Below, one piece after another: positions 49,714-53,269 of a stretch of DNA of 64,000 bases. The DNA comes from Nitrosarchaeum sp. Lineage in GTDB: Archaea > Thermoproteota > Nitrososphaeria > Nitrososphaerales > Nitrosopumilaceae. The notes beneath the pieces are model-generated. The model was not told the DNA's origin and made no database searches. It worked only from the letters and a program-made list of their open reading frames with translations. The position numbers were made by a program, and so were the translations under genes. The stretch covers positions 568,391-632,390 of the forward strand of contig JAILWJ010000001.1 in NCBI GenBank assembly GCA_025699025.1. Reading direction: 5' to 3'. Each line of letters begins with the position of its first letter. Position 1 is the first letter of the stretch.

Positions 49714-49770
49714 TTTGTGTAAAATTATTTAGTTTCACCATAGAAAAACAATGAAAATGTGATTTTGTCA

Positions 49771-50028
49771 ATGGCTACAAAAAGAAAAGCTGCTACTAAA
49801 CGTAGACCTACACGAAAATCTACTACAAAGAAAGCAGCTCCAAAGAGAAAAGCTAGCAAAAAAACCGCTGCAAAGAAAGCAGCTCCAAAGAGAAAAGCAG
49901 CTCCAAAGAGAAAAGCAGCTCCAAAGAGAAAAGCAGCTCCAAAGAGAAAAGCAGCTCCAAAGAGAAAAGCAGCTCCAAAGAGAAAAGCAGCTCCAAAGAG
50001 AAAAGCAGCAGCAAAAAAAAGACGATAA
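49771..50028 (+). CDS. Histone-H1-like Lys/Ala/Pro-rich repeat protein, 85 residues
   Basis: An 85-residue protein from ATG 49771. The composition is about one third lysine plus alanine, proline and arginine: the start MATKRKAATKRRPTRKS, then seven tandem AAPKRK units and the end AAAKKRR. This is the composition of eukaryotic histone H1 tails and bacterial HctA/AlgP-like proteins, not of a globular domain, so it probably is intrinsically disordered and binds nucleic acid. There is no known homologue I can name. The gene ends 11 bp before a terminator-like hairpin. Confidence 0.75.
   Translation: MATKRKAATKRRPTRKSTTKKAAPKRKASKKTAAKKAAPKRKAAPKRKAAPKRKAAPKRKAAPKRKAAPKRKAAPKRKAAAKKRR
49879..50004 (+). 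repeat. Seven 18-bp tandem repeats in the H1-like gene
   Basis: The unit GCAGCTCCAAAGAGAAAA is repeated seven times exactly end to end (49879-50004), each unit encoding AAPKRK. Identity down to synonymous positions points to recent expansion by slippage or unequal recombination. Copy number could vary between strains. Confidence 0.9.
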
Positions 50029-50100: not shown

Positions 50101-50385
50101 TCAACTAAACATTTGTCCCGGCGGTTGGGAATTTTTTCCTTTGATAGAATTTTTTTGTACCGTAAATTTTTTGTCTGGTGGAGTTATAGATAATTTCACC
50201 GCAGTATTAATCGCATAATGTGGAGTGCCATCAGGGTTTGTATAGTTGATGGCTTTGCCAACTCTGTCCAAATCAACTTTGACTTTAACAATTGTTCCAT
50301 CTTCCAACTCAAATGTTACAAATTCATTTTCCAATCTTTTATAATCCAACATTTTGAATTCTATTTTTTCTCTGTTTTCACTCAT
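50101..50385 (-). CDS. Hypothetical protein paired with the collagen-like gene, 94 residues
   Basis: A soluble beta-rich protein (FVTFELEDGTIVKVKVDLDRVG and AVKLSITPPDKKFTVQKN) ending with a Pro/Gln tail (KGKNSQPPGQMFS). It starts 22 bp downstream of the collagen-like gene on the same strand, so they are probably co-expressed. It may be an accessory or binding partner; this is inferred from location. No family recognised. Confidence 0.55.
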   Translation of the reverse strand: MSENREKIEFKMLDYKRLENEFVTFELEDGTIVKVKVDLDRVGKAINYTNPDGTPHYAINTAVKLSITPPDKKFTVQKNSIKGKNSQPPGQMFS

Positions 50386-50407: not shown

Positions 50408-52024
50408 TCAATAAAGATAGCTCATCAGTTTGATTTGTTCCTCAGTGCTGATAATACTTTTGTTTGTCAATATCTCAAGTAATTCTTTAAAGATTGCTTT
50501 TTGTTCTGCAGACATTCCACCAGATGGACCCTTTTCTCCGGGTGGACCGGGTGGACCACGTGGACCTGCAGGACCAACTGGACCCTGCTCTCCTTGTGGG
50601 CCCTTATCTCCTTGTGAACCAAATGGACCGGTTGGACCACGTTCACCTTGTGGGCCTTGGATTCCTTGTGGGCCTTGTGGGCCTTTTTCTCCAGGCGGAC
50701 CAGATGCCCCACGTTCACCTTGTGGGCCTTGTGGGCCTTGTGGGCCTTTATCTCCTTGTGGACCTGCTGGACCGGTTGGACCTTTGTCACCTTGTGAACC
50801 CATTGGTCCTTTCTCTCCTTTTTCTCCTTGTGAACCAGGAACGCCTGTCAGACCCTTAGAACCGGTTGGACCTTGTGGGCCTTGTGGGCCTTTTTCTCCA
50901 ATGGGACCCTCTTGACCTCGCGGACCTTTATCTCCAAAAGGTCCAGGTGGACCTAACGGTCCTTTGTCTCCTGGTGGACCGGTGGGACCAGTTAATCCTT
51001 TATCACCAGTAGGACCAGGAGGACCTAACGGTCCTTTGTCTCCAACGGGTCCTTGTGGACCTTTATCTCCAATGGGACCCGGTGGACCTTGAATTCCTTT
51101 TTCGCCTTGTACACCAGCTTGCCCTGTTGGACCTTTTTCTCCAATGGGGCCAGTGGGTCCAGTTAATCCTTTATCACCTGGAACTCCTTGTGGACCTTTA
51201 TCTCCCTTGTCGCCAGGTAATCCACGTAATCCGGTTGGTCCCTTGTCGCCAGTAGGACCTGTTAATCCTTTTTCGCCTTTATCGCCAGTAATTCCTTTCA
51301 GACCTGTCGGACCCTTGTCGCCAGGCGGACCTGTTGGGCCTTTATCACCCTTGTCGCCAGGCGGACCTGTTGGGCCTTTATCACCCTTGTCGCCTTTATC
51401 GCCAGTAATTCCTTTGTCGCCAGAGATTCCTCTGTCTCCAGACAATCCCTTATCGCCCTGTGGACCTTTATCACCAGTGGGACCTTTATCACCAATTGGT
51501 CCTTTTTCTCCAGGCGGACCTTGTGGGCCTTTATCACCAGGCGGACCAGGCGGACCTGTTGGGCCTTTATCGCCTGCAGGACCTTCAGGACCCCTTGGGC
51601 CTCTATCGCCTTGCAATGCATAACCAGCAAAACTTGTTTCTTGGGGTTTAGATCTTTTTGCAGGTTCTGATTTGGGTTCAGGTTTAGATTCAGTTTTTGG
51701 TTCAGGCTTTGTAGATTTCCGTGTACCACCCAATGATACATCAAAAACAGAATGAAGTGAAGAGAAAAGATCAGATACGACTATCCAAATTGTATCTTGA
51801 TCATAAACTACAGACGGGATGGGATTTTCATTAGATCCCAGTGTTTCTGTAAACATGCCATCTTTAACTCGAAGATGGAAATTACCTCGCCATAATGATT
51901 TGAATTGTTTAGTTCTTATGCTGTCATCAGAGGGTTTTGAGTCAGTAATTGAAATTTGTACTTCATACACCCCAGACTGCCTGAATGGGGCTTTGCCTTG
52001 AACTTCTATTCTTGGAGAGGACAC
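50408..52024 (-). CDS. Collagen-like protein with about 120 uninterrupted Gly-X-Y triplets
   Basis: A 538-residue protein from the GTG ending at 52024. Residues 1-100 form a beta-rich head ([30 protein letters not shown]), followed by a repeated Lys/Pro/Glu linker (about 104-128), then Gly-X-Y from G139 to about 503 with no visible break, rich in GPP, GDKGPT and GEKGP. A 35-residue helical tail ([18 protein letters not shown]) may trimerise the chain. No signal peptide or membrane segment is seen. A related frame continues upstream of the GTG to a TGA at 52097-52099 without a standard start. Collagen-like proteins in archaea are rare. Confidence 0.85.
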
Positions 52025-52138
52025 ACCGTTGATGTAAATTCCAAGTATTTCTATATTTTCAAAGATTTTTCCAGAATTTTGAGAACTAGGCTCGATTCAG
52101 GATAGTATTTATCTAGATAAAAAGTCAAACATGACCTA

Positions 52139-53269
52139 GTGAAGAAGCCATTTCAAAGAAAAACGAGAAAAACCAAGGAAGATACGCCAAAAATAGACGT
52201 AAACCAGCCTGAGGAACAAACCAGCCTGGTAGATTCGGATTATAATCGCAAAAAATTATTCAAAAAGGGAGTCAACCTCATGGCAGATGAAAAGCTTGAG
52301 GAGGCAGCAGTTGTTTTTGAGCAAGCACTGAGAATAGATCCCAATAATGTCGAAACCTTGATGAAACTAGGTTATGCAAGGTTCCACTTAGAAGAGCACG
52401 GAGAAGCCCTCAAAGTGTATGACAAAATTTTGGATATTGATGTAACAAATCCAGAAGCATGGAACCTCAAAGGACTGGTACATTATGAACAGAAGAATTT
52501 TTCAAAAGCACTAGACGCAGTAGAAAAAGCCATAGAATCAGACCCGACTTATGGAATGGCATGGTACAACAAAGCATGTTATTTGTCGCTACTAAACCAA
52601 GTTCCGGAATCACTTGAAGCATTAAAACGCTCAATTGAGATTGATGTAAAAAATGCCAGAAAGTCAGTCAGAGACAAAGACTTTACAAATGTCAGAGTTG
52701 AAGAAGGATTCAAACGAATCAACGAAGTAGTGGTGTTAGAATCAGTCAGGCAAGGATATCACACATTGGGGGCAATTGTATGGACCACATTTTTAGATAA
52801 AGCAGACGCAGAAGAAGCACTTCGAAAGCTGTTAGAGAAAGGATTAATCGTACAAAACGAAAAACGTGACGGTCTAAGTAAAATTCCGATATATGATCTT
52901 GCTCCAGACGTTGCTGAAAAGATGGGCAAAGAAAAGAAAGGGTTGTTTGGAATTACAAGAAAACAGTTACCGACACCAGTAAAAAACCTCAAAGAGTTAA
53001 GTCATGCAATCCAAGCAGTCCGTGAATCGATCGAGGCAGAAGACATTGAAAAAACAATGGATAATTTTGAAGAGTTCATAGATCCTAAAAAATCAGGCGA
53101 GCAGATGATTGAGCAGTTTTTTGATGAGCATAGAGAAATAAGATTATGGAAAATCAGACTAAAGGATAGAGGAGTGGATTACTTGATTGAAAATAAAGAC
53201 AAAATGCTCAGCCTGTTTGACAACATCGAAGTCACAATTACAAAAAAACTCCGAAGCGAGATATCCTAG
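52139..53269 (+). CDS. TPR protein with winged-helix C-terminal region
   Basis: A 376-residue protein from GTG 52139. A basic head (KPFQRKTRKTKED) is followed by four or five TPR units (LEEAAVVFEQALRIDPNNVE, HGEALKVYDKILDIDVTNPE, FSKALDAVEKAIESDPTYGM). Then a winged-helix-like region (HTLGAIVWTTFLDKADAEEALRKLLEKGLI) and a helical tail with no named domain. Divergent to the collagen gene by 115 bp. It is probably a scaffold or regulator. Confidence 0.78.
   Translation: MKKPFQRKTRKTKEDTPKIDVNQPEEQTSLVDSDYNRKKLFKKGVNLMADEKLEEAAVVFEQALRIDPNNVETLMKLGYARFHLEEHGEALKVYDKILDIDVTNPEAWNLKGLVHYEQKNFSKALDAVEKAIESDPTYGMAWYNKACYLSLLNQVPESLEALKRSIEIDVKNARKSVRDKDFTNVRVEEGFKRINEVVVLESVRQGYHTLGAIVWTTFLDKADAEEALRKLLEKGLIVQNEKRDGLSKIPIYDLAPDVAEKMGKEKKGLFGITRKQLPTPVKNLKELSHAIQAVRESIEAEDIEKTMDNFEEFIDPKKSGEQMIEQFFDEHREIRLWKIRLKDRGVDYLIENKDKMLSLFDNIEVTITKKLRSEIS

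Follow-up and report, generated by a model that had tools for sequence, protein, structure and literature searches.

An uninterrupted collagen-like protein encoded in nearly all Nitrosopumilaceae

The window, the whole stretch of 64,000 nucleotides that was analysed, comes from a Nitrosarchaeum sp. genome (contig JAILWJ010000001.1) and contains a single collagen-like gene (Table 1). The gene boundaries given in the preliminary description are correct. That this thaumarchaeal protein is truly collagen-like is borne out by the 122 Gly-X-Y triplets and by PF01391 (Collagen), which is the sole Pfam family on the 538-aa protein (E=1.5e-60, five stretches). The run was first described as about 120 triplets reaching about residue 503, with short variations. 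The run exists, but it consists of exactly 122 triplets, reaches residue 504 and is uninterrupted, with Gly at every third residue (122/122). The commonest triplets are GDK (25), GPT (14), GPQ (14), GPP (12) and GEK (9).

Table 1. Positions of the collagen-like gene, its parts and adjacent features in the window
Feature	Position	Strand	Description and basis
Collagen-like gene	50408..52024	-	538 aa, GTG start; ORF call, Pfam, orthologues
Head	51731..52024	-	Residues 1-98; beta domain, family-specific; AlphaFold2 pLDDT >90
Linker	51611..51730	-	Residues 99-138; K/P/E/S-rich; predicted disordered, pLDDT ~50; poorly conserved in alignment
Collagen region	50513..51610	-	Residues 139-504; 122 Gly-X-Y triplets, zero interruptions
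Tail	50411..50518	-	36 aa; helical-hairpin-like, candidate trimerisation domain; conservation
Conserved promoter element AAATATAGAAATACTT	52044..52060	-	TATA/BRE-like; 20-36 nt upstream of GTG; 38 aligned upstream regions
Small 94-aa gene	50101..50385	-	Possible non-obligate partner; 22 bp downstream of collagen gene
Divergent TPR protein gene	52139..53269	+	Conserved 5' neighbour (context only); Pfam, synteny

The Gly codons of the collagen region are mixed (GGT 55, GGA 36, GGC 29, GGG 2) and the collagen DNA has a GC content of 55%, compared with 39% for the window. The region is thus coding sequence and not a simple DNA repeat or satellite. It is not a sequencing artefact, a possibility that had been considered earlier. 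The gene is present as a single copy in its own genome (1.71 Mb, four contigs, 99.99% complete). If triple-helical, the rod would be about 105 nm long (366 residues x 0.286 nm). Prolyl hydroxylation of the rod is rejected for lack of a PF13640 (prolyl hydroxylase) match in its own genome. Lysyl-oxidase cross-linking is likewise rejected, as PF01186 is absent from the same genome and from 99 of the 110 Nitrosopumilaceae genomes searched.

In the AlphaFold2 model of the head monomer, the fold spans residues 6-97, with approximately 95 residues at pLDDT >= 90. It contains six predicted beta strands, the first of which starts at residue 6, and one or two short helices. The beta-rich head that had been proposed is upheld by this model. 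The head sequence has no Pfam family and no PDB relative. In a Foldseek search of the PDB and viral models, no match to the head fold has E<0.01. The likeliest match, the SgrA adhesin 5fce, is too weak to interpret as a relative (TM 0.43, E 0.16). A bacterial secreted 'NYQGRL...LFSVTLG' domain, which we took to be a possible relative of the head, aligns to it with an hhalign probability of 0.8%, the test set being four near-identical atypical sequences. The same domain has no tblastn match in plasmids, and IMG/VR yields an atypical variant only. The KPEPK units described in the linker are present in the sequence, but the linker is modelled with low confidence and is not kept in relatives.

The tail is near-invariant, with 80% mean column identity, and L14, K20, I29, L31, S33 and L35 are invariant. 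Its conservation across orthologues supports the earlier suggestion of a helical C-terminus, and it looks like two short amphipathic helices. In tail searches, Nitrosopumilaceae matches have E<1e-11 and the best match elsewhere has E=0.003, making the tail family-restricted. There is no relative of the tail in Pfam or the PDB. A SHOCT identity is rejected: within the limits of the HMMER filters, none of 21 tails has a SHOCT match at E<=10. The tail is proposed as a trimerisation domain.

The upstream regions of 38 loci have AAATAC-type boxes in common. The box closest to the conserved GTG/ATG stands 26-27 nt ahead of it in 19 of 22 sampled loci. A promoter so close to the start codon is a hallmark of leaderless archaeal mRNA. 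This constant spacing implies an mRNA with little or no leader and pins down the start codon. With the start fixed and the fold beginning at residue 6, a signal peptide is unlikely. Hydrophobic stretches are missing from the whole 538-aa protein (maximum 19-residue Kyte-Doolittle mean of 1.26), and no segment would suffice for a membrane helix. The preliminary description, which found no signal peptide, agrees with all three observations, and synthesis without a Sec signal is well supported by the conserved start site.

The full-length orthologues (n=35, from 16 genera) contain 68-163 triplets each. Broken Gly-X-Y periodicity in relatives, which had been named as a reason for doubt, is not found: there are 0 interruptions in 4014 triplets. 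When orthologues of equal length are paired, their Gly codons never differ at position 1 or 2 (0 differences) but do so 25-93 times at position 3, and the X and Y codons vary freely. The number of triplets varies, but their register does not: with no broken triplet and Gly codon changes confined to the third base, it is under strong purifying selection. The X position is occupied by P (42%) and D/E (31%), and the Y position by K/R (35%), Q (17%), P (14%) and T (12%). Hydroxyproline-free bacterial collagens have charged and polar X-Y residues, as this protein does (PMC8968730).

A 151-aa query made up of the head and first triplets detects the gene in 206 of 250 Nitrosopumilaceae genomes, 123 of 131 high-quality genomes and 22 of 22 genera. 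Among the single-contig Nitrosopumilaceae genomes listed, 24/24 have the head of the collagen gene. Fragmentary orthologues (e.g. L063, L091) run out within the repeat at contig edges, so some absences are probably assembly breaks. Isolates are among the carriers, and named records with an orthologue include Nitrosopumilus salaria, Nitrosopumilus sp. b1, Ca. Nitrosopumilus limneticus, Nitrosarchaeum MAGs and Ca. Nitrosotalea devanaterra (LN890280.1). None of the 70 genomes from the sister family (f3) has the head. In an order-wide sample, it is not found outside the Nitrosopumilaceae, which account for all 22 matches. Positive controls were detected in both searches. To call such proteins rare in archaea, as was done at first, is misleading, since this one is near-universal in the family to which its head is confined.

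The order of DRG GTPase, collagen gene, divergent TPR gene, rhodanese and sulfite/nitrite reductase is kept. Head distances are correlated with those of the neighbour genes (Mantel r 0.76-0.86, 0/2000 permutations). Together, the conserved synteny and the distance correlation indicate that the collagen gene is vertically inherited, and it probably dates from the ancestor of the Nitrosopumilaceae. In the single-contig genome G040, the orthologue (L096:5895-7700, forward strand) retains the head and tail, but its collagen part is frameshifted and a single in-frame stop interrupts the gene. This broken gene may reflect decay, in which case the gene may be dispensable, or an assembly or sequencing error.

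The small gene downstream had been suggested as a partner. This suggestion fits its position directly 3' of the collagen gene in many genomes and its co-variation with the head. It does not fit its distribution, as the 94-aa gene is present in just 48 of the 131 high-quality genomes (14/22 genera), compared with 123 for the collagen gene. The mismatch rules out an obligate partner, and the gene is at most an accessory. Where present, the 94-aa family has 73% mean column identity and an NPDGTPHYAxN motif, and a decayed trace of it occurs in G152. In some genomes, proteins of 150-166 aa encoded elsewhere are weakly similar to the 94-aa protein, which AlphaFold models poorly (pLDDT 53). Another small gene (49759-50028, forward strand) encodes a Lys/Ala/Pro-rich protein with about seven exact KAAPKR-type repeats and no Pfam match, reminiscent of histone-H1-like DNA-binding tails. 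Within this gene, an 18-bp unit is repeated in 7.4 copies with 100% matches (49876-50009).

Other collagen-like proteins are also present in these archaea. Those of f3 (L196-L207) are Gly-X-Y proteins from the same order, but they have signal-peptide-like N-termini and other flanks, are mostly shorter (~13-52 triplets) and lack the Nitrosopumilaceae head and tail. In another genus of the Nitrosopumilaceae, a 2518-aa secreted-looking protein (L098:199-7755, reverse strand, G222) has 559 consecutive Gly-X-Y triplets between a AAKKAADDAAQK repeat region and FG-GAP-like repeats. A further secreted-looking Nitrosopumilaceae protein, of 1183 aa (L097:2739-6290, reverse strand, G135), has short collagen stretches followed by surface-protein-like repeated domains.

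For the collagen gene of the window, the following are established: the anatomy of the sequence, purifying selection on Gly, presence in nearly all members of its family, restriction to that family, and vertical descent. The best explanation, to which we give about an even chance, is a core gene for a homotrimeric rod that is trimerised by its tail, binds through its heads, is made independently of Sec and is probably intracellular. The C-terminal 36-aa helical tail would nucleate the homotrimer. The 122 triplets would then wind into a triple helix of ~105 nm without hydroxyproline, in which the charges of D/E at X and K/R at Y may stabilise the helix. At the opposite end of the rod, three beta heads on flexible linkers would form a binding cluster. 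Least certain is the last step, in which the rod would act as a rigid tether or scaffold of adjustable length, either within the cell or on the inner side of its envelope. With no Sec signal, the simplest reading places the protein at one of these two sites. The BclA-type spore filaments of Bacillus are an intracellular collagen rod without a Sec signal, and their non-collagen end domain is thought to trimerise. There is no spore in these archaea. More tentative is the specific proposal of a cytoplasmic collagen, a trimeric, length-variable core element of ~100 nm whose new-fold beta head anchors or spaces a cellular structure; its chances are somewhat below even.

Prokaryotic collagen-like proteins studied so far act mostly outside the cell. 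This counts against an intracellular rod and in favour of a surface fibre or adhesin, exported independently of Sec and Tat and attached to the S-layer via its head or tail; the Thr residues at Y (12%) could carry glycans. Such a fibre is the main rival, less likely than the intracellular rod. A signal peptide, a hydrophobic segment and a sorting motif are all missing from the 538-aa protein, whereas the f3 proteins, L097 and L098 all have ordinary signal-peptide-like N-termini, which suggests that these archaea export collagen by the usual route.

It is improbable that the repeat forms a long disordered, charge-rich spacer or a condensate in vivo instead of a triple helix. Collagen and disorder predictions do overlap, but the absolute Gly at every third residue and the free synonymous change are a triple-helix signature that would be pointless in a spacer. 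Descent from a domesticated virus tail-fibre gene is more improbable still. The full-length protein strongly matches tail-fibre PHROGs, and phage tail fibres (PHROGs 6320, 5073, 366) likewise have collagen repeats and are made in the cytosol with no signal peptide. However, the PHROG matches are confined to the collagen repeats. The best PHROG match of the head has E=0.011 (a function-unassigned PHROG), the tail has none, and the head has no relative in viral contigs or phages. Unlike the phage genes, the archaeal gene has no phage neighbours and no phage-like head or tail; it is vertically inherited at a fixed chromosomal position, a housekeeping locus in all genera inspected.

An LPXTG-anchored Scl-type adhesin, as automatic annotation may label the protein from its top NCBIfam match (NF038329), is refuted by the sequence: the match falls in the collagen repeats at 208.3 bits against a curated cut-off of 325 (NF038330, 193.8 against 400), and there is no signal peptide, LPXTG or C-terminal hydrophobic anchor. 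Scl1 and Scl2 of Streptococcus resemble the archaeal protein: they too have a globular N-terminal domain and a long Gly-X-Y run with charged or polar residues at X and Y, and they lack hydroxyproline machinery. The archaeal protein differs in its unrelated head, its additional conserved C-terminal helical tail, the absence of a signal peptide and LPXTG anchor, and its place among the core genes of a family. A product of 'Ca. Nitrosotenuis chungbukensis' has been named 'LPXTG-anchored collagen-like adhesin' (PMC13037477), a name that, judged by sequence, would not be justified for the 538-aa protein.

Beyond that mention, searches of the open-access literature yielded no account of a conserved Nitrosopumilaceae collagen, and a review of prokaryotic collagen-like proteins is silent on archaea (PMC8968730). 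The Nitrosopumilaceae protein widens the range of natural collagens. With no signal and a tail of its own, it would readily supply a triple helix that needs no hydroxyproline, and may also yield a new trimerisation module. The Nitrosopumilaceae, a family of ammonia-oxidising archaea, are globally abundant and rank with the most numerous cells of the ocean. A perfect collagen that is kept in nearly all of them, even in genomes of ~1.2 Mb, suggests an important, unrecognised structural function, and a collagen-type protein looks to be a basic part of Nitrosopumilaceae cells.
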